The notes below the pieces were generated by a model that was not told where the DNA came from, searched no databases, and was given only the letters and a program-made list of their open reading frames with translations. This document shows, piece by piece, positions 49,352-64,000 of a stretch of 64,000 nucleotides of DNA. The stretch spans positions 124,001-188,000 of the forward strand of contig CAMBRF010000001.1 in the NCBI GenBank assembly GCA_945870225.1. The letters run 5' to 3'. Made by a program: the position numbers and the translations under genes. This stretch comes from PVC group bacterium (GTDB lineage: Bacteria; Verrucomicrobiota; Kiritimatiellia; CAIKKV01; CAITUY01). Within the stretch, counting starts at the first letter, position 1. The number at the start of each line of letters is the position of its first letter.

Positions 49352-50437
49352 ATGAAAATGATCGAGGATCTTCTTAAGCATATGTGTGACCGGGGGGCTT
49401 CCGACCTCCTGCTTACAGTTGGTTCGCCACCCCAGTTTCGTGTGAATGGGATGATGGAACCGCTGCAGTCGAGCCCCATGGACGGGGGGATGATTGAACA
49501 GATCGCCTTCAGCGTTCTGGGTGAGGCCCGCATGGAGAAGCTTCAAGTCCACAAGAGTGTCGACTTCTCCAAAGGATATGAAGGGTTAAGTCGTTTCAGG
49601 TTTAATTTCTTCTACCAGCGTGACTCAATCGCGGCAGCGATCCGGAAGATTTCCTTTGATATCCCCCCGTTCGATGAATTGGGGCTGCCGGAGATCGTCA
49701 AGGATTTCGCCTGTCGCCCGTGTGGATTAGTTCTGGTCACCGGGCCGGCGGGTAGCGGGAAGTCCACGACGTTGGCGGCGATGCTGAATTATATCAATGA
49801 GGTCCGTCGCTTGCATATTGTCTGCATCGAAGACCCGATTGAATACCTGCATCAGCACAAGCAGAGTGTGATCAATCAGCGCGAAATCGGGGCGGACGCC
49901 CATTCCTTCAGCGATGCATTGCGCAGTGTGTTTCGTCAATCTCCCGATGTCATTATGGTAGGGGAGATGAGGGACTTGGAAACGATGCAATTGGCACTCA
50001 GTCTGGCGGAGACCGGCCACTTGATTCTGGCGACGTTGCATACCCAGGACGCCACTCATGCCATCAATCGAATTGTTGACGTGTTTCCTCCCGCCCAGCA
50101 GCAACAGATCTACACTCAATTGGGCATGGTCCTGGTCGGCGTGATTGCCCAACAACTGCTGATCACACAGGATCGCTCGCGGCGAGTGATGGCGTGCGAA
50201 GTGATGAATGTCAACAATGCGATCCATAATCTTATTCGCGAAATGCAGGTGCAGCAGGTGTATTCGGTGATACAAACCGGGCGGGCGGAAGGAATGATCA
50301 CCATGAACGAATCGCTCAAGAATCTTTGCGAGAGGGGCGTTATAAACGTGGATACGGCCATGAGTCGTTCGCCGCGGCCGAAGGAATTGGCAAGAATGCT
50401 GCAACTGACCGTTAAAAACGGAGCCAATGGGGCATGA
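49352..50437 (+). CDS. pilT: type IV pilus retraction-type ATPase PilT
   Basis: VTGPAGSGKSTTLAAMLNYIN, EDPIEYLHQHKQSVINQREIG, GEMRDLETMQLALSLAETGHLILATLHT, AIHNLIREMQVQQVYSVIQTG. Confidence 0.93.
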   Translation: MKMIEDLLKHMCDRGASDLLLTVGSPPQFRVNGMMEPLQSSPMDGGMIEQIAFSVLGEARMEKLQVHKSVDFSKGYEGLSRFRFNFFYQRDSIAAAIRKISFDIPPFDELGLPEIVKDFACRPCGLVLVTGPAGSGKSTTLAAMLNYINEVRRLHIVCIEDPIEYLHQHKQSVINQREIGADAHSFSDALRSVFRQSPDVIMVGEMRDLETMQLALSLAETGHLILATLHTQDATHAINRIVDVFPPAQQQQIYTQLGMVLVGVIAQQLLITQDRSRRVMACEVMNVNNAIHNLIREMQVQQVYSVIQTGRAEGMITMNESLKNLCERGVINVDTAMSRSPRPKELARMLQLTVKNGANGA

Positions 50438-50457
50438 GGAGTATTAAAGGAGAACGT

Positions 50458-52122
50458 ATGAACACAATGGCTGGATTGCGGAGCGGTTCGATTAAGACCT
50501 TTCTATTTCTCGTGATCGGTTTGGCGATGCTGGGTCTTTCAGGGGGGGCTGTTTTGGCTCAGACCACGACGCCCGCGGCGGTTACGCCAGAGACGGAGCT
50601 CTCGGCCGATTTGGTGACGATCAACGTTGATGAGGGAATGATCGTTCAGGTGTTGAATGCCTTCTCCCGCCAGACCGGGCGCAGTATCGTTGTGGGACCG
50701 GAGGTTACCGGGAAGGTGACGGCCCGCTTGAGTAATGTTCAGTGGCGTGATGCGCTTGATGCCATTTTGCGGCCGTATGGATACGGTTACTACCTGGTGG
50801 GCGATACAATTATTGTGACCGCGATTGACAAATTGCCGAGGGTTGCGCCGTCCGTGACCTCAGGGGCGTCATCGGGTACATCGGCCACGCTCACGGCTCC
50901 GCCCAAAGTGCTCAGGATTTTCACGCTCAGGTATCTGGATGCCGCCGACGTTGAAGCTGTAATCAAGAGCCAACTTTCACCTGGTGGTACTATTGGGCGC
51001 CTGACTATGCAGAGTCAGAGTTGGAAAGAAACCGGGGGTAATTCAGTTCAGAATAACACAAGTTCCGAGAGCTTGGGACGTCTGAACCGGTTCTCCGAGA
51101 ATGTCGAGCAGGTCAAAGGTAAAACGTTTGTCGTGGTGGATACAGCGGATGTTATTAAACAGATAGAAGCTATTCTTAGTCAGCTTGACAAGATGCCGAC
51201 GCAGGTTCAGATCGAGGCCAAGTTTGTCGAGGTTCGTGCCGACTTGTTGCGTGATGTGGGATTCGAGTGGGGAACCGGAGCGGGTGGTGCCTCAACACCT
51301 GGTGTCAAGACGGTTGGCACAACGGGCGGGGGAAAACTCTATGCCGCAGGCGCCCAGCAAATTAGTGGAACGGTGAAACCTGCCGGATTTGTTGCCCAGA
51401 GCTCGGGTCTGAGCGGAACTCAGCCCTTTAATGCTGGGCTATCCCTGGCTTTTCAAAAACTTACAGACTTCCAGTTTGAAGTCCTGCTGCATCTCCTTGA
51501 GGAGGATGCCTCCTATAACGTGCTTTCTTCTCCTCGTGTTTTGACCATGAACAATCAGGATGCAGTGATTATTGTGGGGACGAAGCTGCCGATCATCAAG
51601 TCCGACACCTCGGCGGGTGGCACCGCCGGGTCCGCCACAACCTCCACTACTTTGGAGCGTTATGAGGATATTGGCATCAAACTCAAAGTTCTGCCTCAGG
51701 TGTGTGAAGACAACTTTATCAACCTCATCGTTCACCCGTCAGTACGAGACTTACTGTCCTACCAGTCCGGTAAGGTCAGTTCGGGGGCTGCGGGAGCGAC
51801 GGTATCGTTAACCGAGTATCCCGTGGTGGCAACGCGGGAAGCAGAGACTCAGGTAATGGTCAAGAGCGGGCAGACAATCGTCATCGGTGGAATGATTCGG
51901 GAAAGCAAGCAAACCACGCAGTTTAAAGTGCCGTTTCTGGGGAGTATTCCTCTGCTGGGTGTTCTATTCCGGCGCGATACGGTTTCGACTGAGAAAATTG
52001 AGCTGCTGATATTCCTGACGGCACGAATTCGTAGTCCGATGGATGAAGAGAACGTGCCCGCGCCCACGTCCATCATGAATGCGACGGTAGCTGTGGCTCC
52101 TGAAAAGAAGGCAGTGAAGTAA
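50458..52122 (+). CDS. secretin (GspD/PilQ family)
   Basis: STN-like N-terminal region, VQIEAKFVEV, secretin C-terminus VKSGQTIVIGGMIRESKQTTQFKVPFLGSIPLLGVLFRRD. Confidence 0.93.
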   Translation: MNTMAGLRSGSIKTFLFLVIGLAMLGLSGGAVLAQTTTPAAVTPETELSADLVTINVDEGMIVQVLNAFSRQTGRSIVVGPEVTGKVTARLSNVQWRDALDAILRPYGYGYYLVGDTIIVTAIDKLPRVAPSVTSGASSGTSATLTAPPKVLRIFTLRYLDAADVEAVIKSQLSPGGTIGRLTMQSQSWKETGGNSVQNNTSSESLGRLNRFSENVEQVKGKTFVVVDTADVIKQIEAILSQLDKMPTQVQIEAKFVEVRADLLRDVGFEWGTGAGGASTPGVKTVGTTGGGKLYAAGAQQISGTVKPAGFVAQSSGLSGTQPFNAGLSLAFQKLTDFQFEVLLHLLEEDASYNVLSSPRVLTMNNQDAVIIVGTKLPIIKSDTSAGGTAGSATTSTTLERYEDIGIKLKVLPQVCEDNFINLIVHPSVRDLLSYQSGKVSSGAAGATVSLTEYPVVATREAETQVMVKSGQTIVIGGMIRESKQTTQFKVPFLGSIPLLGVLFRRDTVSTEKIELLIFLTARIRSPMDEENVPAPTSIMNATVAVAPEKKAVK

Positions 52123-52143
52123 GGTTCTTGTGAGGCACGATCG

Positions 52144-53853
52144 ATGACTGAAGTGCGGCTAGGAAATGTGTTGTTGCAGCGGGGGCTGATTAAAGAATCC
52201 CAGCTTGAGAGCGCCATCAGTCGTCATCGCGAGACGGGGCAGTTGCTGGGAGAGTCCTTGGTCGAGCTGGGGTATGTGACGCAGGACGACATCGGGCGGG
52301 CGTTGGCGGAACAGATGGGGATCCCTTTCTATGAACTGGGCGATGACTTTCGGATGGAGAAATCGGAAGTCAAGCTGGTGCCTGAGGCGGTTGCGCGGCG
52401 TTGCTGTCTGGTTGCGGTGAAGAAAGATGCCAGCCTTTCCATGACTCTGGTCATGAAGGATCCGCTGGATGTGGAGGCAATCGATACGGTGCGGTCCCTG
52501 ACACGGCTTGAAATTCATAAGGCGGTTAGCTCGGAGGCTCGGATCCGGGCGGCGATTGACCGTTTCTATACGCCGGAAGCCCATATTGAGCGTGATCTGC
52601 AGGATATCGCCGAGGTCGAGCCCGATCCGGCGAGTGTGGTGCTGGATGAAGCCCAGGTGAATGCCGAACAGTTGCGCGTATTGGCCAACGATGCGCCGGT
52701 GGTCCGTTTTGTCAACTTGTTGCTGATGCAGGCGGTGCGTGATCGGGCCAGTGATATTCATTTCGAGCCCGGCGAAAAGGATGTAAGAGTGCGTCTGCGT
52801 ATTGATGGGGTGCTGCGGGAAATTACGCCGCCACCGAAGGCGCTGTATCAGGCCATTGTCACGCGTATCAAGATTCTATCCACCATGGACATTGCTGAGC
52901 GCCGGCTGCCCTTGGATGGGCGGTTCAAGTTTACAGTCCATGACCGGATCATCGATATACGCGTTTCGTCTCTGCCCCAGGTGCATGGCGAAAAGCTTGT
53001 GCTGCGGGTGTTGGACCGCAAGTCTCTCTTGGTGGACATGAAGGATTCGGGCTTTAACGATGTACTGCTCAAGCGCTTTCAGCGGATCTTGCAGGTGCCG
53101 CATGGAATAATTCTGGTGACCGGACCGACTGGCAGCGGCAAGACGACAACATTGTATGGCGCGCTGAACTATTTAAAGAGTCCCCAGTGGAATATCCAGA
53201 CGGTTGAAGATCCTGTCGAATACTTGATGCCGGGTATCAATCAGATGCAGATCAAGCCGCAGATTGGTTTGGACTTTGCCAGTGCCCTGCGGTCCATTTT
53301 GCGGCAGGATCCTGATATTATTATGATTGGCGAGATACGCGATCTGGAGACGGCCCGTATTGCCATGCGTTCGGCGTTGACCGGCCACCTGGTGCTCAGC
53401 ACGCTGCACACCAATGATGCACCCTCTGCTCTTTGGCGATTGCGGGATATTGGCATTGAATCCTATCTCGTTGCTGCCACTGTGAAACTGATTGTTTCGC
53501 AACGTTTGGTGCGTCTGGTGTGTCCGCATTGCAAGGAAGTTAAAGCCCCATCTGAAGAAGCCCTCGCCTTTGCGACCAGTTTTTGTCCGGATGCGGGATC
53601 TTGGACCTATTTTTATGGTAAAGGGTGCCCGAAATGCAGCAAGACGGGCTATCGTGGGCGCAGTGGAATATTTGAGTTTCTGGAAGTGACTGATCCCATC
53701 AGGGAAATGATTTTACAGGAGACCGGCGGCGTTGTTTTTCGGAACAAGGTCATCGAGATGGGGATGGAAACATTGGTGCGGAGTGGCCTGGGAAAAGTCA
53801 AGGAAGGGGCCACAACTATTGAGGAAATCATGGGTGTCTGTGCCGGAGATTAG
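52144..53853 (+). CDS. type II secretion/type IV pilus assembly ATPase (GspE/PilB)
   Basis: VTGPTGSGKTTTLYGALNYL, RQDPDIIMIGEIRDLETARIAMRSALTGHLVLSTLHTNDA, CPHC...CPKCSKTGYRGR zinc site. Confidence 0.96.
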   Translation: MTEVRLGNVLLQRGLIKESQLESAISRHRETGQLLGESLVELGYVTQDDIGRALAEQMGIPFYELGDDFRMEKSEVKLVPEAVARRCCLVAVKKDASLSMTLVMKDPLDVEAIDTVRSLTRLEIHKAVSSEARIRAAIDRFYTPEAHIERDLQDIAEVEPDPASVVLDEAQVNAEQLRVLANDAPVVRFVNLLLMQAVRDRASDIHFEPGEKDVRVRLRIDGVLREITPPPKALYQAIVTRIKILSTMDIAERRLPLDGRFKFTVHDRIIDIRVSSLPQVHGEKLVLRVLDRKSLLVDMKDSGFNDVLLKRFQRILQVPHGIILVTGPTGSGKTTTLYGALNYLKSPQWNIQTVEDPVEYLMPGINQMQIKPQIGLDFASALRSILRQDPDIIMIGEIRDLETARIAMRSALTGHLVLSTLHTNDAPSALWRLRDIGIESYLVAATVKLIVSQRLVRLVCPHCKEVKAPSEEALAFATSFCPDAGSWTYFYGKGCPKCSKTGYRGRSGIFEFLEVTDPIREMILQETGGVVFRNKVIEMGMETLVRSGLGKVKEGATTIEEIMGVCAGD

Positions 53854-53915
53854 TTCCGTCGGGATCGTCTCTTTTGGGAGGGACGGCGTGTCGCCGTCCG
53901 GTTGAGAGGGGAAAT

Positions 53916-55157
53916 ATGCCATTTTACCGCTATAGCGCCAGAGATGCCAAGGGAGCGTCGTTCAAGGGCGATGTTGAGGCTCAAACAAGGTATGAGGCTC
54001 TGTCGCAGCTTAATGCCCGCGGTTTAACGGTCGTTGAGATTGAAGAAGTGGGGGGGGGATTCGTTCGTGCGGCCATTAGTGCGCGACCGCCGGCTATCAA
54101 AGTCTCGAAAGGGTTTCGGTCGGGAAGAGTGTCCCTCACAGAAAAAGCCATTTTTTGCCGGCAGTTATCCATCTCTGTTAGCTCGGGGATTTCACTCCGG
54201 GAGGCAGTTGAAACTATCATGACGGATCAGGATAATGCCTCCTTTCAAGAGGTTCTGGCTCGGATTCTGCAAGGATTGGATGACGGAATGCCTTTCTCGC
54301 ATGCGATCAGTCGAGAGAGTCGGGTTTTTGACCGGCTGTTTATTGCCTTGATCAGGGCGGCGGAGGAATCCGGGAGCATGACTGAGACGCTGGAGTATCT
54401 GGCGACCGCGCTTGAAAAGTCAGACCGGTTAGCACGCAAGGTTCGCAGCATCTTGGCCTACCCAATGTTTATCGGCGCGTTTTTCATTATTGTTATCGGG
54501 ATCATGACGTTATTCATTTTGCCTCGATTTCAGGACATATTCGCTAATTTTGGGAGCAAACTGCCCTTATTGACCCGTGTGGTGCTGGATGGTAACAAAT
54601 TTATCATTCACAATCTTGTCTACATCATGGCAGGGATTGTGGCCGTTATTGTTTCGCTGACGATTTATGTGCGGACGCCGGCTGGACGTCTGCAGCGGGA
54701 TGGCTTTGTGCTTAAATTGCCCTTGGTGGGTGAACTGATCCGAAAAATATCTGTGGCCAGGTTTTGTCGAAATCTAGGGATTATGATTCGTGGCGGCGTT
54801 CCTGTGACGACTGCCATTACCATTGCCGCAGAAGTTCTTGGGAATCGGGCAATGGAGGACACGCTGCGAGCGACCCATGATCGGATCATTGAGGGGAACG
54901 ATATTGCCTCCAGTCTTGATAAGAAGACGTTTCCTCGGCTTGTGGTTCGGATGGTAGGAGTCGGCGAATCCTCCGGTCGGTTGCCGGAAGTACTCGACAA
55001 GGTGTCGGATCTTTACGAAGATCAAATAGAGGGTTCTATTATGGTGATCACAGCTCTATTTGAGCCGTTCATCATCATTTTTTTCGGGGCCATTGTTCTG
55101 GTCTTTGTTATGGCGATTTATCTGCCGGTATTCTCAGTTGCGGGTACGGCGAGGTAG
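53916..55157 (+). CDS. type II secretion/type IV pilus inner-membrane platform protein (GspF/PilC)
   Basis: MPFYRYSARDAKGASFKGDVEA, FCRQLSISVSSGISLREAVE, VGESSGRLPEVLDKVSDLYEDQIEG. Confidence 0.95.
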   Translation: MPFYRYSARDAKGASFKGDVEAQTRYEALSQLNARGLTVVEIEEVGGGFVRAAISARPPAIKVSKGFRSGRVSLTEKAIFCRQLSISVSSGISLREAVETIMTDQDNASFQEVLARILQGLDDGMPFSHAISRESRVFDRLFIALIRAAEESGSMTETLEYLATALEKSDRLARKVRSILAYPMFIGAFFIIVIGIMTLFILPRFQDIFANFGSKLPLLTRVVLDGNKFIIHNLVYIMAGIVAVIVSLTIYVRTPAGRLQRDGFVLKLPLVGELIRKISVARFCRNLGIMIRGGVPVTTAITIAAEVLGNRAMEDTLRATHDRIIEGNDIASSLDKKTFPRLVVRMVGVGESSGRLPEVLDKVSDLYEDQIEGSIMVITALFEPFIIIFFGAIVLVFVMAIYLPVFSVAGTAR

Positions 55158-55277
55158 GACGAAGACTGAAAGGAGGGCTTATAAAAACGATGGAGTGGTT
55201 GGGTGTTCTTTATTGTCTTGAATGTGCCTTTTCATGCGTTGTGGTGGAGTAACAAAAAAAAGAAAGAGGGAAAGCAG

Positions 55278-55691
55278 ATGAGTATCAAGAGCAAGGCTGG
55301 TTTTACGTTGATTGAGTTGATGGTCGTGGCGATTATTGTTGCCATCCTGGCCGCTGTGGCCATCCCGCTGTTATCAGCCAACAGGAACCGGGCGTATGCA
55401 ACCGAAGGGCAGGCCGGTTGTGGTACAATTAAGACGGCTATTCGGGTGATGCAGGCCGATAATGCCACGGCTCCCGCGACGGGAAATATCGCCAGTAATA
55501 ATGTCAGGGGTGTGTCCACTGCTGATTTGGAAGGGACATACTTTGCTGGTAATGGTTATGTGCTGACGACCTTCACGGACTACAATAACTACGTTGTGAC
55601 GGCCACGGCCTCGAAGAATAATGCGGCCGGTACCGTGATTATGACGGTAGCAAGCGGGTCGGCTGCGTTCACCGGGACTCTGTTACAGTAG
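55278..55691 (+). CDS. major type IV pilin / GspG-like prepilin
   Basis: MSIKSKAG^FTLIELMVVAIIVAILAAVAIPLL prepilin peptidase site. Confidence 0.92.
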   Translation: MSIKSKAGFTLIELMVVAIIVAILAAVAIPLLSANRNRAYATEGQAGCGTIKTAIRVMQADNATAPATGNIASNNVRGVSTADLEGTYFAGNGYVLTTFTDYNNYVVTATASKNNAAGTVIMTVASGSAAFTGTLLQ

Positions 55692-55710
55692 AATAGTGGG
55701 ACTCTTCGGT

Positions 55711-55768
55711 AGACCGGGGCGATTTTCCGTGTAATACGGAATGTCGCATCCGGCTACCGGGTCTTTTC
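55711..55768 (+). terminator. candidate structured terminator after pilin gene
   Basis: Inner stem GCGATTTTCCGT-GTAAT-ACGGAATGTCGC (10/12) and outer AGACC/GGTCT followed by T-rich run. Confidence 0.35.
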
Positions 55769-55820
55769 GTTTTAGCGTGTTTAATGACGACATGCGGCGT
55801 AAACACGTCGAATCTTTCTG

Positions 55821-55876
55821 GGTAGGGCGCGCAGTCCCTTGAGCGCTGCGGCGGCCAAGGGACTGGCCGCCCTACC
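55821..55876. repeat. 20-bp imperfect inverted repeat GGTAGGGCGCGCAGTCCCTT ... AAGGGACTGGCCGCCCTACC
   Basis: 18/20 complementary arms, 16-nt spacer. Confidence 0.9.
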
Positions 55877-55919
55877 AATTGGGTTGCGGGCAGAAGCCTG
55901 TGGTGGGACGGAGGATGAC

Positions 55920-56891
55920 GTGATCAGTTGGTCCACATCAGATGTTGCCGGCGTCAATTTCGGGGACAGTCACATTACAGTGGCCCGGATGCGCGGCAAC
56001 AAGAGCGGACCTTTAGAGGTCACTCATGCGGGGTGGGGGGACTACGACCCGTCGGCCCCTGAGAAGGAAATCGCTACAGCCCTCAGGGCGCTCTGGCGCA
56101 AGGCGCGTCTTCCCACAACGGCTGTTGTGGCGTCTCTTCGCAGTTCAGCGCTGGTAGTCCGCTATTTCAAGTATCCTTCCATGCCGGAGGCCGAGTTGTG
56201 GTCGGCGCTGCAGCTCCAAGCAGAAGAGTGTCTGCAATTGTCGCGAGATGAACTGGTTGTGGACTGCCATATCAATAAAGGACAGGTGTTGGGGAACGAA
56301 AAGCGACTTGCGGGTGAGATGATCGAAGGGGTGTTGGCGGCTGCTCCTACTAAGGACGTTGACCGCGCATTAAGTGTTTTGCATATGGCCGGCCTGGATC
56401 CCATCATTCTGGATGTCAGGGCCATGGCTGTTGCGAATCTGTACGCCGTGTTAACGGCTAAACGGGAAGAGCCCACGATTTGCGTGGTCAATCTCTCGCC
56501 GCATTCGGCGGATGTGATTGTGCTCTCGAAATCGGGAGGGATGTATCCTCATACGGTCTTCTGCCGGGCCTCGACGTGGGCTGAATCTCCCGAGTTTTTG
56601 TGCGAAAATATCCGCGATGTGATGAAATATAGCGAGTTCAAGCTTGATTGGGATCCTGTTCATCGGGTCTACCTGACAGGAGACATGTCGACGCAAGGTG
56701 CAGCAAGCCCGTCTTTTAACAGTGAGTTTATGGCGAAAATTCAGACAGGGATGAAGCTTCCGGTAGAAGTTTGGGACCCGTTGAAGCACCTCGTTTTGAA
56801 GGCGAAAAGGGTCAAGGAGTTGATTGAAAGTCATCCCGCTGACGCGGCGCGGCTTGCACCCAGCCTGGGCCTGGCATTAAGGAGGGGCTGA
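55920..56891 (+). CDS. PilM-like pilus assembly protein
   Basis: VAGVNFGDSHITVARMRG actin-like start; position pilin-M-N-O; GTG start with GGAGG SD. Confidence 0.75.
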   Translation: MISWSTSDVAGVNFGDSHITVARMRGNKSGPLEVTHAGWGDYDPSAPEKEIATALRALWRKARLPTTAVVASLRSSALVVRYFKYPSMPEAELWSALQLQAEECLQLSRDELVVDCHINKGQVLGNEKRLAGEMIEGVLAAAPTKDVDRALSVLHMAGLDPIILDVRAMAVANLYAVLTAKREEPTICVVNLSPHSADVIVLSKSGGMYPHTVFCRASTWAESPEFLCENIRDVMKYSEFKLDWDPVHRVYLTGDMSTQGAASPSFNSEFMAKIQTGMKLPVEVWDPLKHLVLKAKRVKELIESHPADAARLAPSLGLALRRG

Positions 56892-56892
56892 C

Positions 56893-57498
56893 ATGGTTCC
56901 CTATAGGCTGAATATGGCGCGAGGGCACGTGTTGCCGTTGGCGACCAGGAGGCGATGGCTCCTCTGGCTCGCGATATATTTTTTGGTCGTGCTGGTGGTT
57001 TTGGCGGTGAGCGTGGCGGTGCTTACCCATAATGGGATAGCGCTTTCCCGGCAGCAGGAAATCATCAAGGTCATGGAGCGGCAACTTTTGGATAATCGGC
57101 CGGGGGTTGTCAGTGTAGGCGACCTTATGCAGCGTCTGAGCCGGGAGATGGGCGCCTGTGAAGGACAACTGGGCGCGATCAATAGTTTCCGGGTGGGGGA
57201 AAGCCGTACGGCGGGAGTTATTTTGGGGCTTGTGAACGTTATGCCGTCCGGAATTGACTTGGGGAAGGTTGGCCTTGATGGTGCAGCCGCTCGAATGGAG
57301 TGCGAGGTTTATGTTCCAGCAGGTCTTAAAGCTGATGACGGCATGACGCCTCCCCGTTTGATAGCATTGTGGGGCGGAGAACCGTTGCTAAAAGGCAGGG
57401 TGAACCATTTTACGTCGGAAAAGAGTGAGCGCGTGATCGTTGATGGCCAGGAAGTGATGAGCTGGCGTTTTGCAGGCGTACTGGGCGGGGGTAACTAG
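56893..57498 (+). CDS. PilN-like pilus assembly protein
   Basis: Single N-terminal TM after a short basic cytoplasmic segment; locus position after pilM. Confidence 0.65.
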   Translation: MVPYRLNMARGHVLPLATRRRWLLWLAIYFLVVLVVLAVSVAVLTHNGIALSRQQEIIKVMERQLLDNRPGVVSVGDLMQRLSREMGACEGQLGAINSFRVGESRTAGVILGLVNVMPSGIDLGKVGLDGAAARMECEVYVPAGLKADDGMTPPRLIALWGGEPLLKGRVNHFTSEKSERVIVDGQEVMSWRFAGVLGGGN

Positions 57499-58437
57499 AT
57501 GAACCTGAGCATGTTAAGATCGGGGCGTCTGGAGCTCGCGGTGTGTATTGTGGGTCCGCTGCTGGTGCTTGCCGTCATTGCCATCCCCGGCCATCTCTAT
57601 TGCCGGCATTGGCGGCAGAACTTGGCGGATAGGCAGGCTTGTCTAGAACAGATTCCTGCGATGGAGCTGCAACTTGCGGCGGCGCGGCAGGCCTTGACTC
57701 CCTTTGCGGCGTCCAGTGCGGAAGGCGACAAGGCGGCGGAACTGACCCTCACCGCGGAAAAGGCGGCCCAGGATTTTGGCTTCATTACACGGTCGGTTAA
57801 TGTCGAGAAACCGGCGGGTGCCGGGGCGGAGTCATGGTCCGATTTTCGGATTGTCCTCAATGGAACCGGCCCCCTCAACTCAATCATAGGAATGTTGGAC
57901 TTTCTGGAACATCCCTCACGGCGGTTTCAGGTTGGTCAGGTTACCCTGAAGGCCAGAGGATTTGTTCCTCAGCCCATATATGATGGGATTGTGGTTCTGA
58001 GTTCCAGGGCTATGAATTCTGCTGCCCCCTCGGGCGCGGGCCCTGCCACTCCTGTGGTAACAGCGGCGCAGGGGATCGAATTGACCAGGCGTTTGGGCCA
58101 ACTGACGGCTTCGATTCGAGCGTGGGCTGAGGAAAAACGCTCGCCCTTGAGTATCCCGAAAAAAGCGGATGACCGTAAGGCGCAGGTAAAGACAGAAAAC
58201 CCCCTGAAGGCAAGTCTCTTTACGTTGACCGGAATCATAAGGGATAAAAAGAATCCGTTAGCGTTGACGGATCGTGGCGTGTTCGGTGTCGGCGATAAGA
58301 TCGATGGTTATCAGGTGCTTTCGATTGCCGAAGACCATGTTCTTGTTCAAGGCGTCAGTGGACCTCCGGAAACGGTGAAATTGTATTCTGATGAGGGGCA
58401 CAAAGATGAACAGAATCCTGGCAAGCGCGGCGATTGA
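57499..58437 (+). CDS. PilO-like protein with C-terminal PilP/GspC HR-like region
   Basis: N-terminal TM + coiled region; C-terminal LFTLTGIIRDKKNPLALTDRGVFGVGDKIDGYQVLSIAEDHVLVQ. Confidence 0.65.
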   Translation: MNLSMLRSGRLELAVCIVGPLLVLAVIAIPGHLYCRHWRQNLADRQACLEQIPAMELQLAAARQALTPFAASSAEGDKAAELTLTAEKAAQDFGFITRSVNVEKPAGAGAESWSDFRIVLNGTGPLNSIIGMLDFLEHPSRRFQVGQVTLKARGFVPQPIYDGIVVLSSRAMNSAAPSGAGPATPVVTAAQGIELTRRLGQLTASIRAWAEEKRSPLSIPKKADDRKAQVKTENPLKASLFTLTGIIRDKKNPLALTDRGVFGVGDKIDGYQVLSIAEDHVLVQGVSGPPETVKLYSDEGHKDEQNPGKRGD

Positions 58438-58891
58438 CTCCGACCGGACGCTAAATCGGTCACCTGTCCGAGCGAATCGTGTGGGGAAAAGTGGCAGCTC
58501 ACTGGTCGAAGTGATGGTCGCCTGTGTGATTCTTTTGATTATTGCCGTGGCAGGAGCCGAGTACCTTTCTCACGGTCAAGCAACCCTCGCGTTTCAGAAA
58601 AACCGTCGGCTCGCACTTGAGGTGGCGAATAGCGAAATGGAGAAGATTGAAGGAATGTCATATGGAGCGATCACGAACCTGTTGCCCAATAACCCCAGGA
58701 GTTTCGGTGTTGTGAATATAGGGACAAATGTGAACATTGGCGGCGCCACGCTCCCGATGACGAGAACGTTTCGGTATTTCGACGCCGACGCAGGTTCGTC
58801 CACCTACGATGCCGTATGGGTCTCTGTTTCAGTTCGGTACCGGTCGGATTTGGGAGATCAGATCACCTTACACACTCTAAGATCTTTATGA
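58406..58891 (+). CDS. prepilin-like protein (PilV/GspI-like)
   Basis: GKSG^SSLVEVMVACVILLIIAVAGAEYL; short N-terminal leader. Confidence 0.75.
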   Translation: MNRILASAAIDSDRTLNRSPVRANRVGKSGSSLVEVMVACVILLIIAVAGAEYLSHGQATLAFQKNRRLALEVANSEMEKIEGMSYGAITNLLPNNPRSFGVVNIGTNVNIGGATLPMTRTFRYFDADAGSSTYDAVWVSVSVRYRSDLGDQITLHTLRSL

Positions 58892-58910
58892 GTAGGGGTT
58901 CTTAAGCTCA

Positions 58911-59375
58911 ATGAATGCTTGTCGAAATAAGGGTTTCACACTTGTGGAACTGATGGTCGGCATGGTTGCGGCGGCCATACTTGCCCTGATGTTTGGAGCC
59001 ATGTTGTTTTACGGCTACACAGGGTGGGTGAGACTGCAGGCGATGGCCGAGATGGAACGTAGTGGTGCATTGGCGATGCATACGATGAGTCGAGTGTTTC
59101 GTGGGGCTACGGCGACTAAAATAAAGAATGTCAGCGGCAGCTCGGTAATCGTCAGTAATGTCAACAGCATTGCGTCGCAGTCTTTCTACCGCTCCGGGGA
59201 AACGCTTAAATATGGTATCAACGGAGTGGATAGAATGAATTTGGTTGAGACGGGTTTGACAGCTTTTGTCTGCCTGCCGGTTTCCAATAACGAGGTGAGA
59301 GTTATGTTGAGTCTGAGAGTGCCTGCGGTGAATATGACGATGAGCCTGACGAACATCATCACACTGAGGAACTGA
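58911..59375 (+). CDS. prepilin-like protein (PilW/GspJ-like)
   Basis: MNACRNKG^FTLVELMVGMVAAAILALMFGAM. Confidence 0.8.
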   Translation: MNACRNKGFTLVELMVGMVAAAILALMFGAMLFYGYTGWVRLQAMAEMERSGALAMHTMSRVFRGATATKIKNVSGSSVIVSNVNSIASQSFYRSGETLKYGINGVDRMNLVETGLTAFVCLPVSNNEVRVMLSLRVPAVNMTMSLTNIITLRN

Positions 59376-59378
59376 ACC

Positions 59379-60575
59379 ATGAGCACGAACATCCATATTA
59401 TGAACCGTTGTCCCCTTCGGCCTGATGGTAATCGTCGGGAGGGTGCCGTTCTGGCGATTGTGCTTATGGTGGTTCTGCTTCTCGGCATTCTAGCCGTTTC
59501 CATACTGAAAAACGGCGAGTACGTAGGGGTTGAGGCCTCAAGAGGCATAAACGACGCCAAGGCCTTCTGGGCTGCTGAGGCGGGGTTGCATCATGCCAGA
59601 GGTCGCCTGTTTAGCTTCTCGAGTTTTCGCGACGTTCCTTACCCGTTCACCAGTACTCTAGCCACAGGAATTGACTACTCTGTGACAGTCGTCAATGGTT
59701 CACCCGATTATTTCACCATTACATCAACAGGAGTGGTTCAGGGCGTGGCCGGAAACGCCTCGTTTTCGAGAGCGGTTCGCCAGACGGTTCTGATCCATGA
59801 GGATTGGCGCGCTTTTGATTACGCGCTATTCGGAGGTAATGGTAATACTACCATTGGTAAGCTCGCGATGATCAATGGAGATGTATTCCAGAACGGAAAT
59901 ATCAATTTTACTCAAACTCCTACGGTCACCAATGGGAATATTGAGGCAGTTGGCACCGTTGGAAATTATCCGCGAACGGAGCCGCCGGTCCCCCTGCCGG
60001 AAGCACCGGTATTGAAGACGAGCGTTTACTCCAATCTCATCAACATTGCTGCGGTTAGTACGAATGTGACCTATCCGACCTCGCTTGCTGGCAAGACTAA
60101 TAACGTCCGAAATTCTATTACAATCTCAGGCAATCTTGTTGGGCCGGGGATGCTTGTGGTGAACGGTGATGTGAGCATTAACACGAGTACCGGGATCGGG
60201 AGCAATCTTACGATTGTGGCTAAAGGGGAGATTCATTTCACGAAAGATTGTGCAACGGGGGCCAACTGTATTCTCTATTCAAACACAGGATTCGACATAC
60301 AAAAAGACAACGCCATGCTGAGCGGGTGCATGCTGATTACACCAGGCGATATGGATATCGATAAGGAATTCACTTTGACCGGCGTGCTCTATGCTGGCGG
60401 AACCATAACGCTCGATAAGGCGGCCACCGTATACGGGTGTATTGTGGCGGGAGAGGGGTTTGATATTGCCAAGGAATTCACGGTTGTTTATACGAATGTG
60501 ATGAATACCATTCCGCCAGGCTTTGTAACGACGTTAACGTTGCGCGAAGAGCCTGATTGGGTGGAGCTTTTCTAG
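59379..60575 (+). CDS. PilX/GspK-like pilus-associated protein with beta-helical C-terminal region
   Basis: REGAVLAIVLMVVLLLGILAVSILKNGEYVG...AFWAAEAGLHHARGRL; repetitive GDMDIDKEFTLTGVLYAGGTITLDKAATVYGCIVAGEGFDI. Confidence 0.75.
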   Translation: MSTNIHIMNRCPLRPDGNRREGAVLAIVLMVVLLLGILAVSILKNGEYVGVEASRGINDAKAFWAAEAGLHHARGRLFSFSSFRDVPYPFTSTLATGIDYSVTVVNGSPDYFTITSTGVVQGVAGNASFSRAVRQTVLIHEDWRAFDYALFGGNGNTTIGKLAMINGDVFQNGNINFTQTPTVTNGNIEAVGTVGNYPRTEPPVPLPEAPVLKTSVYSNLINIAAVSTNVTYPTSLAGKTNNVRNSITISGNLVGPGMLVVNGDVSINTSTGIGSNLTIVAKGEIHFTKDCATGANCILYSNTGFDIQKDNAMLSGCMLITPGDMDIDKEFTLTGVLYAGGTITLDKAATVYGCIVAGEGFDIAKEFTVVYTNVMNTIPPGFVTTLTLREEPDWVELF

Positions 60576-60625: not shown

Positions 60626-60988
60626 ATGAAAACACGAAACGTTTGTTTGCTGTGTACGGTGCTGTTGATTGGGGCTGCTGGTGTGGCCCTGACCGGATGC
60701 GAGTCGACGGGAACGACTGATTCGGCCATTACGATTACGGGGTCATCCTCGAACATCACGGGCAAAGCCGCCGTGACGCTTACAGCCGTGCTCGCCGGGG
60801 GGACTAATTCCACCACCAGTTTGGCGCTGCCGCTCGTGTGGACTGTGAGTGACTCCTTTTTGGGCGGCATCAAGTCAAGCGCCGGCGTGACCGCAATCTA
60901 CCAGTCGACCGGCAAGGTCGGGAATAATGCCATCACCGTCCGCGATCAGGGTGATTCGGAAGGCGTGGCTGTGGTGAGCCAGCAATAG
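60626..60988 (+). CDS. lipoprotein with bacterial Ig-like domain (putative)
   Basis: MKTRNVCLLCTVLLIGAAGVALTGC lipobox; ITGSSSNITGKAAVTLTAVL...VWTVSD... Confidence 0.65.
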   Translation: MKTRNVCLLCTVLLIGAAGVALTGCESTGTTDSAITITGSSSNITGKAAVTLTAVLAGGTNSTTSLALPLVWTVSDSFLGGIKSSAGVTAIYQSTGKVGNNAITVRDQGDSEGVAVVSQQ

Positions 60989-61112: not shown

Positions 61113-61802
61113 ATGGTTAAGAAACTCTCGCTGTTGGGTGTGCTGTGCGTGGGTATGATGCTGTGCGGATGCGATGATGATAAGGATGGTTCCGCAAGTG
61201 GATCGGCCAGCGTCAGAGGTGAGGTAACCTATGTGAGTCCGGAATTCGCGCCCGGCGTTGAAGCTGGCGTGAAGGTTGACTTGGTCGGTCCGGTCACCCT
61301 GCATGCGACCTCGGATAGCAAGGGAATCTTCACGTTCAATAACGTGCCGGCCGGGCACTATACGCTAGTGCTGCATGTCAATGGCGGTGAGGCGACCTAC
61401 GAGCTTAATATTGCAGAAGGCAAGGCCGTGGTGTTGGTGCATGTCCGCGTAAACAAGAACGGTTCGGTTACTGTCTACTCCGATGAGGCGGACGCGACCA
61501 ATATTGCCGGAAGCTGGGCGTTCCGCAACACATCCCCCGGGACATCAGCGGAGGAAATGACGATTGTTCAGAATGGTGAGGCCATTTCAGGGACGCTAGG
61601 TAGTCGCATAAGGTTCACCGGCTCAGTCAGTGGAAATTCGGTAGCCTTCAATTTCACCTATACGCCGACTTACTTGGGAATCAAATCAGCCACCGGCACC
61701 ATTAATGATAACGCCGACGGGATGAGTGGGACTTGGACAGACGAAGACGGTCATACGGGGAACTGGACGGCAAATCGGGGCGGCGAATTTGGTGACAGAT
61801 GA
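61113..61802 (+). CDS. tandem lipoprotein paralogue, copy 1
   Basis: MVKKLSLLGVLCVGMMLCGCDDDKD lipobox; CarboxypepD_reg-like TSDSKGIFTFNNVPAGHYTLVLHV; variable C-terminal beta domain. Confidence 0.9.
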   Translation: MVKKLSLLGVLCVGMMLCGCDDDKDGSASGSASVRGEVTYVSPEFAPGVEAGVKVDLVGPVTLHATSDSKGIFTFNNVPAGHYTLVLHVNGGEATYELNIAEGKAVVLVHVRVNKNGSVTVYSDEADATNIAGSWAFRNTSPGTSAEEMTIVQNGEAISGTLGSRIRFTGSVSGNSVAFNFTYTPTYLGIKSATGTINDNADGMSGTWTDEDGHTGNWTANRGGEFGDR

Positions 61803-61872
61803 GCGGTGTCTGACGTTGACGCCGGTTAAATAGAGAAGATGGGCGGATGATAACAAGGAAAGGAAGGTCTAA

Positions 61873-62565
61873 GTGATTAAGAAAGTTTCTCTGTTGGGTG
61901 TTCTTTGTCTGGGCGCAATGTTGTGCGGATGCGATGATGATAACGATGATTCCGCCAAGGGGTCGGCCAGCGTCAAGGGAGAAGTCACCTACGTGAGTCC
62001 GGAGTATGCTCCTGGTGTTGAGGCCGGAGTGAAAGTTGATCTGGTCGGTCCGGTCACCCTGCACGCAACCTCCGATAGCAAGGGAATCTTCACGTTCAAC
62101 AACGTGCCAGCCGGGCACTATACGCTGGTGCTGCATGTCAATGGCGGCGAAGCGACCTACGAGCTTAATATTGCCGAAGGCAAGGCGGTGGTGTTGGTGC
62201 ATGTCCGCGTGAATAAGAACGGTTCGGTTACGGTTTATTCTGATCAGGCTGACGTGGTCAATATCGCTGGTAACTGGGCCTTTCATAACACGACGCCGGG
62301 GATTGTCGAACAGCAGTTGGTGATCAACCAGAACGGTGAATCCATTTCTGGAACCCTGGGCGGCAACCTCCATTTTTCGGGTTCAGTCAGTGGACATTCG
62401 GTATCCATGAATTTCACTTATATTCCCTCAAATGTTCCTTCACCGTGGGTAATCAAGAGCGCCACCGGAACGATCAACGACGACGCTACTGCGATTAGCG
62501 GCACGTGGACTGATTTGGACGGTAATGTCGGGAATTGGTCGGCAACCCGCCATGGGCTCGACTGA
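61873..62565 (+). CDS. tandem lipoprotein paralogue, copy 2 (GTG start)
   Basis: MIKKVSLLGVLCLGAMLCGCDDDNDD; identical central domain to copy 1. Confidence 0.9.
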   Translation: MIKKVSLLGVLCLGAMLCGCDDDNDDSAKGSASVKGEVTYVSPEYAPGVEAGVKVDLVGPVTLHATSDSKGIFTFNNVPAGHYTLVLHVNGGEATYELNIAEGKAVVLVHVRVNKNGSVTVYSDQADVVNIAGNWAFHNTTPGIVEQQLVINQNGESISGTLGGNLHFSGSVSGHSVSMNFTYIPSNVPSPWVIKSATGTINDDATAISGTWTDLDGNVGNWSATRHGLD

Positions 62566-62580
62566 GAAATAGCCACTTAA

Positions 62581-62615
62581 AGCCGCCACCGGATTGCTCC
62601 GGTGGCGGCTTTTTT
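62581..62615 (+). terminator. Rho-independent terminator after lipoprotein copy 2
   Basis: Perfect 13-bp stem AGCCGCCACCGGA-TTGC-TCCGGTGGCGGCT followed by TTTTT. Confidence 0.92.
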
Positions 62616-62693
62616 GTTGTGCATCGCGCATAGAATGTTTCAGTAATAGGTCTCTACAAATATATATTCCTGCATCACCGGGAAGATCTTATT

Positions 62694-62776
62694 ACATCGA
62701 TGTACAGGATAGACAGGATCGTTCGGAGTCCCATTATCTTTCCCAGTTTCATCCTGTATATCCTGTCCATCGATGT
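62694..62776. repeat. long inverted repeat ACATCGATGTACAGGATAGACAGGAT / ATCCTGTATATCCTGTCCATCGATGT
   Basis: 26-nt arms 24/26 complementary, 31-nt spacer; REP/MITE-like. Confidence 0.9.
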
Positions 62777-62866
62777 TAAGCGAATTTCAGACAGCCCCCT
62801 CATCCTCTCCACATTCCAGAAATTAATTTGTCCTGCTCGCATGGCTGGGCCAGCTGTCCTTGATTC

Positions 62867-62896
62867 TTGACGTGATTATGATGCGCAAAGTATAAG
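62867..62896 (+). promoter_or_regulatory. candidate promoter TTGACG-N18-TATAAG of lipoprotein copy 3
   Basis: Same architecture as 61010-61039. Confidence 0.55.
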
Positions 62897-62969
62897 AGGC
62901 ATTAGGAAAAAGCCATGAGCGTTATGCTAGGGTGGCGATAACGGTGGCTTGATGCAAAGGAGGGGTGTT

Positions 62970-63659
62970 ATGGTTAAGAAACTCTCGCTGTTGGGTGTGC
63001 TGTGCATGGGTGTGATGCTATGCGGATGCGACGATGATAAGGATAGTTCTGGCGGCGGATCAGCCAGCGTCAGAGGTGAAGTAACCTATGTGAGCCCTGA
63101 ATTCGCGCCAGGTGTTGAAGCCGGCGTGAAAGTTGATCTGGTCGGTCCGGTTACCCTGCACGCAACCTCGGATAGCAAGGGAATCTTCACGTTCAATAAC
63201 GTGCCGGCCGGGCACTACACGCTGGTGTTGCATGTCAATGGCGGCGAAGCGACCTATGAACTGAATATCGCGGAAGGCAAGGCGGTGGTGTTGGTGCATG
63301 TCCGCGTGAATAAGAACGGTTCGGTTACGGTTTATTCCGATGAAGCTGATGTCAGAAATATTGCGGGAACATGGGCTTTCCGGAATATGACGCCGGGAGT
63401 GCCCGGGTTGGAGATGGTGATCAACCAGAACGGCGAAACCGTTTCGGGAACGCTGGGAAGCAGTCTTCACTTCACGGGGTCAGTCAGCGGAAGCACGGTT
63501 AGTCTCAGTTTTACATATACTCCTTCGCGTTTAACAATTAAGACCGCCACCGGAACGATCAATGATGATGCAACCGCGATCAGTGGGACTTGGACTGATG
63601 AGGATGGCAACGTGGGGAATTGGACGGCAACTCGTGATGGTCTCTCTGATCCCGAGTGA
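62970..63659 (+). CDS. tandem lipoprotein paralogue, copy 3
   Basis: MVKKLSLLGVLCMGVMLCGCDDDKDSSGGG; same central domain. Confidence 0.9.
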   Translation: MVKKLSLLGVLCMGVMLCGCDDDKDSSGGGSASVRGEVTYVSPEFAPGVEAGVKVDLVGPVTLHATSDSKGIFTFNNVPAGHYTLVLHVNGGEATYELNIAEGKAVVLVHVRVNKNGSVTVYSDEADVRNIAGTWAFRNMTPGVPGLEMVINQNGETVSGTLGSSLHFTGSVSGSTVSLSFTYTPSRLTIKTATGTINDDATAISGTWTDEDGNVGNWTATRDGLSDPE

Positions 63660-63675
63660 GTAATCGCCCCTTGCC

Positions 63676-63715
63676 AAAGCCGTCAGCGGCAATCTCCGAT
63701 GGCGGCTTTATTTTA
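63676..63715 (+). terminator. degenerate candidate terminator after copy 3
   Basis: AGCCGTCAGCGG..CCGATGGCGGCT then TTATTTTAT; resembles the perfect stem at 62581. Confidence 0.5.
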
Positions 63716-63755
63716 TGGATGATGGGTGAGGTCTGCAAAAACGAAAGGTCTAAAA

Positions 63756-64000
63756 ATGGTTAAGAAACTTTCACTGTTGGGTGTGCTGTGCGTGGGTATG
63801 ATGCTGTGCGGATGTGATGATGATAAGGACAGTTCCGCAAGTGGATCGGCTAGCGTCAGAGGCGAGGTAACCTATGTGAGCCCGGAATTCGCGCCCGGTG
63901 TTGAAGCCGGCGTGAAGGTTGATCTGGTCGGGCCGGTCACCCTGCATGCGACCTCCGATAGCAAGGGAATCTTCACGTTCAATAACGTGCCAGCCGGACA
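63756..64000 (+). CDS. tandem lipoprotein paralogue, copy 4 (3' truncated by window)
   Basis: ATG GTT AAG AAA CTT TCA CTG TTG GGT ... MLCGCDDDKDSSASGSASVRGEVTYVSPEFAPG..., open to window end. Confidence 0.9.
   Translation, partial: MVKKLSLLGVLCVGMMLCGCDDDKDSSASGSASVRGEVTYVSPEFAPGVEAGVKVDLVGPVTLHATSDSKGIFTFNNVPAG

Follow-up and report, generated by a model that had tools for sequence, protein, structure and literature searches.

Is a protein segment that is identical in neighbouring paralogues kept so by purifying selection, by homogenisation of the copies, or by both? The question is raised by a tandem array of lipoprotein genes at the end of the 64,000-nucleotide stretch of bacterial DNA analysed here (the window), in which a central core was invariant in protein but not in DNA. 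A preliminary description of the locus had favoured strong purifying selection over only very recent duplication.

Organization of the lipoprotein gene array

Four lipoprotein genes were arranged head to tail on the plus strand, at 61113-61802 (copy 1, 230 codons including the stop), 61873-62565 (copy 2, with a GTG start), 62970-63659 (copy 3) and from 63756 onwards (copy 4). Only the 5' part of copy 4 (63756-64000) lay in the window; reading past position 64000 completed the gene (L014:7756-8436), with the stop 436 bases past the window end. Exactly four copies, where at least four had been noted before, were detected when the assembly (54 contigs totalling 2.7 Mb, 83.6% complete) was searched with the core and with the C-terminal domain. 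Each copy consisted of a signal peptide with the lipobox LCGC followed by DDD, the core and a C-terminal domain of approximately 101-105 residues. Inspection of the translations for a positively charged n-region, a hydrophobic stretch and a lipobox ending in Cys found these features of signal peptidase II substrates in MVKKLSLLGVLCVGMMLCGC, which occurred in all copies with small variations. The core was located at 61254-61484, 62014-62244 and 63111-63341 in copies 1, 2 and 3, respectively. Assembly duplication or collapse was ruled out as the cause of the array, because the copies differed at synonymous sites throughout and their spacers differed as well.

An intrinsic-terminator-like hairpin (plus strand, 15-pair stem and T run) followed copy 2 at 62579-62612 (L014:6579-6612). 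Between copies 2 and 3, an inverted pair of ACATCGATGNACAGGATANACAGGAT was present at 62694-62776. A shorter form of this repeat, ACAGGATNNACAGGATG, was found 14 times in the genome and the reversed control pattern 0 times, indicating a dispersed repeat family.

Purifying selection on the core

The 77-aa core was identical in all four copies, including the portion of copy 4 beyond the window, which extended the identity first seen in copies 1-3 and the visible part of copy 4. The copy pairs differed there at 14-24 codons, all synonymous, with no replacement. Copies 1 and 3 differed at 24 codons, in agreement with the two dozen or so synonymous differences initially estimated. The four cores together required a minimum of 37 synonymous and 0 replacement changes, with 42 of the 77 codons identical in all copies and 35 variable. 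By simple site counts, approximately 11 replacements were expected at an omega of 0.1 (probability of zero, 2e-5), and the 95% upper bound of omega was approximately 0.028; Nei-Gojobori counts served for omega. The core is thus under strong purifying selection that removes replacement changes, as had been proposed from the first inspection.

Homogenisation of the core, probably by gene conversion

Codon differences were then compared only at residues common to two copies, so that protein-level selection could not matter. The fraction of such codons differing between copies was 0.18-0.31 in the core and 0.57-0.67 in the C-terminal domain. As fully randomised codons were predicted from the codon usage of the window to differ at 0.64, synonymous sites in the C-terminal domain were saturated. 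The contrast between the two domains was found in every copy pair (Fisher p from 4e-4 to 5e-7) and survived stratification by residue (permutation p=5e-5). Divergence at synonymous sites was therefore 2-3 times lower for the core than for the C-terminal domain of the same genes, and the view that purifying selection had acted in place of homogenisation was not sustained.

The tract of low divergence had boundaries near codons 47 and 124-128, and nucleotide identity between copies dropped from approximately 0.9 to 0.6 across codons 120-135. Before the core, 0.42-0.53 of the shared-residue codons differed between copy 2, whose 5' end has diverged, and the others, as compared to only 0.16 between copies 1 and 4. 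The divergence of copy 2 shows that variation is tolerated ahead of the core, and the resemblance of copies 1, 3 and 4 in this region is specific to those copies. Lower synonymous divergence in the common tract than elsewhere in these genes, together with the tract boundaries and copy-specific mosaics, agreed with concerted evolution. Four-taxon AU tests of the tract and flank regions gave no significant topology discordance, a result from short segments that is compatible with a mosaic; topology discordance was accordingly dropped as proof of conversion.

From this one snapshot of four copies in one genome, we infer that the core has been homogenised by gene conversion, and part of its low divergence could reflect synonymous constraint. 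A signal at the DNA or RNA level that constrains synonymous sites would mimic homogenisation, and the 42 core codons identical in all four copies fit such a signal. Against it, the other 35 codons vary, the copy-specific similarity before the core is not predicted by constraint, and Rfam gave no match at the locus except one tRNA; a signal of this kind as the main cause is highly improbable.

Comparison with homologues in other genomes provided a further view of the core. The only full-length homologue found was that of G329, a genome of a different family in the same class; identity to it was 29% for the core and 29-35% for the C-terminal domain. A core that evolved slowly by nature would be expected to exceed the C-terminal domain in this comparison, which it did not. 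Among the paralogues, the core was 100% identical within the genome and 29% outside, whereas the corresponding values of the C-terminal domain were 50-72% and 29-35%; the paralogues were thus closer to each other than to the G329 protein in this domain too, but far less markedly. The preliminary description had pictured an old array with a core invariant purely through purifying selection and a diversifying C-terminal display module. The 37 synonymous against 0 replacement changes in the core and the 50-72% identity of the C-terminal domains speak for this picture, but the lower synonymous divergence of the core largely refutes the word "purely", and between genomes the core has evolved no slower than the C-terminal domain. 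We regard such a history as quite unlikely. Identity of the core within the genome is instead the result of concerted evolution as well as short-term constraint.

No relatives of the lipoprotein were matched in phage, plasmid or viral contigs, in a pattern search of genome contigs, or in four further genomes reached via ThyX.

Duplication history and the origin of copy 4

In a self-comparison, the unit of copies 1-2 could be aligned over its full length with that of copies 3-4 (75% identity over 1581 bases). The upstream flank of copy 3 matched that of copy 1 (79% over 112 bases), and the leader of copy 4 was of the copy-2 type (75% over 77 bases). As the flanks of copies 1 and 3 and those of copies 2 and 4 match each other, the gene pair was duplicated. 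The 5' coding end of copy 4 was of the copy-1 type, with 96% identity over the first 24 codons, so that copy 4 is a mosaic of a copy-2-type leader joined to a copy-1-type 5' coding sequence.

The reverse course of events was also considered, in which a recently duplicated anchor-core gene gained different old barrels by recombination. Such cassette swapping would give an equally sharp boundary, and in other genomes of the class the core-like and barrel domains were indeed found apart, each in lipoproteins of its own. But no donor barrel copies were present elsewhere in the genome of the array, and copy 2 diverges ahead of the core too. The age of the spacers and leaders (75-79% identical) is also easier to reconcile with overwriting of the 5' half. 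Swapping of the C-terminal domains is therefore unlikely.

Folds of the core and the C-terminal domain

The preliminary description had likened the core to a transthyretin-type, carboxypeptidase-regulatory-like domain, and PF13620 (CarboxypepD_reg) scores around the cut-off of 32.3 bits were consistent with this likeness: 28.3-29.0 bits by hmmscan, 31.9-32.1 bits per stretch and 32.4-32.6 bits with neighbours. The core also matched the scaffoldin chains 4u3s/4wi0 in PDB (E 1.4e-5), in line with a CarboxypepD_reg/transthyretin-like fold as in PF13620 members and cellulosomal scaffoldin X-modules; its AlphaFold model was only moderate (pLDDT approximately 58-69). This type of fold is generic and common to many secreted proteins, and says little about function. 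A large protein with a 2743-aa open frame and several CarboxypepD_reg-like matches was observed elsewhere in the same genome (G000:C20:51180-55403).

The C-terminal domain (61485-61799 in copy 1) was predicted by AlphaFold to form a barrel of eight antiparallel strands, with pLDDT of approximately 80-92 for most blocks from residue 131. The fold matches were NHBA, TbpB, Cap15, PvdP and a designed barrel, all with Foldseek E above 1e-3, and indicate no more than a small barrel. This domain was 50-72% identical between copies with one 4-residue indel. The divergence in sequence first described for the C-terminal 85 residues or so was therefore real, in a domain that measures approximately 101-105 residues. 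In the three pairs for which dS was finite, omega was approximately 0.1-0.2; with dS saturated this measure was weak, and it did not point to positive selection or hypervariability as expected of an antigenic or diversifying display module. Clustering of variable residues at one end of the barrel was not supported either, as the loop-position counts were 18/25 vs 5/8 and the variable residues were spread over both ends. The C-terminal domain shows ordinary divergence under constraint. Confinement of diversification to the last domain was consequently an overstatement, since this domain is constrained too and the sequence of copy 2 ahead of the core has diverged as well.

Neighbouring secretion genes and outer-membrane barrel

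Directly upstream of the array, a type II secretion/type IV pilus-like cluster was located at 49352-60575 on the plus strand, as recognised by Pfam matches and gene order. Pfam detected a T2SSE-family ATPase, a secretin, GspE, GspF, pilin-like proteins and PilM, and the N/O- and K-like genes were assigned from position and inspection alone. The gap between the cluster and the array held a small lipoprotein-like ORF (MKTRNVCLL...LTGCES, 60628-60988) without Pfam match.

Downstream, a gene for a 252-aa protein predicted to be a 10-stranded outer-membrane barrel lay on the minus strand, tail-to-tail with the array (L014:8506-9261, 506-1261 bases past the window). The protein had no Pfam or NCBIfam match and no TPR domain, and its predicted structure (pLDDT 86) was OpcA-like (TM 0.76/0.84, Foldseek E 6.6e-12). 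This gene was rare, being present in 9/346 genomes of the class, with a patchy distribution across families. In G329 it was tail-to-tail with the lipoprotein homologue, and in G043 approximately 1.5 kb, including a GspG gene, separated it from the gene for a lipoprotein whose core is similar. In G321, a core-type lipoprotein gene adjoined a secretin gene, so that secretion genes were adjacent to such lipoproteins in G043, G321 and the genome of the array (G000). The barrel gene occurred in lipoprotein-type genomes more often than by chance (p approximately 1e-3 without the query genome, from two overlapping samples and small numbers), and most genomes with the barrel gene had no adjacent lipoprotein of the array type. 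This neighbourhood and co-occurrence put the 10-stranded barrel protein and the secretion apparatus first among the candidate partners.

Further downstream were tRNA-Met and, at L014:9518-13429, a TPR protein of approximately 1300 aa that carries NfrA_C at its C-terminus, with a DUF4434 protein after it. These two proteins suggest that a module for exopolysaccharide or the envelope adjoins the array.

Comparison with known lipoprotein systems

A conserved block that recombines among tandem lipoprotein paralogues has been described for Staphylococcus aureus Lpl, and likewise for the immunity genes esaG and tipC (PMC9484751). Similar to the present array, the Lpl/Csa proteins (DUF576, including TilA) are tandem lipoproteins with a common block for recombination between neighbours and a divergent remainder (PMC9484751, PMC10730906). 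The array differed in its protein, with no DUF576 match reported, and had no T7SS effector nearby; its block was a homogenised stretch of 77 aa at the protein level, whereas that of S. aureus is a crossover site of approximately 130 nt. The like architecture would fit an immunity-protein array of the DUF576 (Lpl/TilA) or TipC kind, in which identical regions recombine and variable domains neutralise different toxins. But no toxin gene was identified beside the array, PADLOC gave no match, and the neighbours were secretion/pilus and outer-membrane genes, which makes an immunity function very improbable.

The Slam-dependent lipoproteins TbpB, NHBA and HpuA also combine a small C-terminal 8-stranded barrel with an adjoining gene for an outer-membrane barrel. 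The NHBA and TbpB matches of the array were weak, as given by their Foldseek E values, and Slam comprises a 14-stranded barrel and TPRs (PMC7857515). The adjacent Slam expected for a Slam-dependent surface lipoprotein was not found, as the neighbouring protein had 10 strands instead of a 14-stranded DUF560 barrel, no TPR and no Pfam match.

Long-lasting concerted evolution has been described in prokaryotic paralogues (PMC6053082). Like these, the genes of the array were closer within the genome than to outside homologues and combined purifying selection with conversion, but their concerted evolution covered only a portion of each gene and stopped abruptly at a domain border. Gene conversion over part of a gene, combined with purifying selection, is an established process; the array is an unusually clear further case.

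Proposed history and function of the array

We consider it probable that the array is a four-gene tandem lipoprotein family in concerted evolution, shaped by pair duplication, conversion of the 5' half and drift of the 3' half, and serving in docking and binding at the cell surface. One gene would have given rise to a pair, and the pair would have been duplicated again. Gene conversion without crossover may then have copied the 5' half (anchor and core) repeatedly among the copies, up to approximately codon 124-128, while the 3' half would have drifted long enough for synonymous saturation, with selection additionally purging replacement changes from the core.

The lipoproteins would be exported by Sec, lipidated at Cys20 and presumably placed in the outer membrane. 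The acidic residues that follow the cysteine make their exposure at the surface probable. In a search for the Bacteroidota-type export signal (C-X-K-(D/E)2 or an SDDDD-like run after the cysteine), CDDD(K/N)D was found after the lipobox, acidic and with no polar or basic residue ahead of the acids; it resembles but does not match the described signal (PMC5080379). Type II secretion is also capable of lipoprotein export (PMC7857515). The common core may dock to one partner, for which the 10-stranded barrel and the adjacent secretion/pilus apparatus are the best candidates, and the four C-terminal barrels may serve as alternative binding modules.

A more specific and tentative proposal, to which we give a rather low probability, is that selection favours mutually identical cores because the lipoproteins co-assemble or all dock at a single site, on either the OpcA-like barrel or the secretion/pilus apparatus. 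Conversion would then keep the interface uniform, the interface would drift between lineages, and the barrel heads would specialise, constituting an undescribed lipoprotein/outer-membrane-barrel system.

As a caution, protein identity among paralogues should be checked against synonymous sites before ultraconservation is claimed. The array provides a clean case, from one genome, of two gene halves under different rules, in which a homogenised core is joined to a head that diverges freely. A linked family of outer-membrane barrels without Pfam entry, in a little-studied class, comes into view as well, and with it a testable partner of these lipoproteins.
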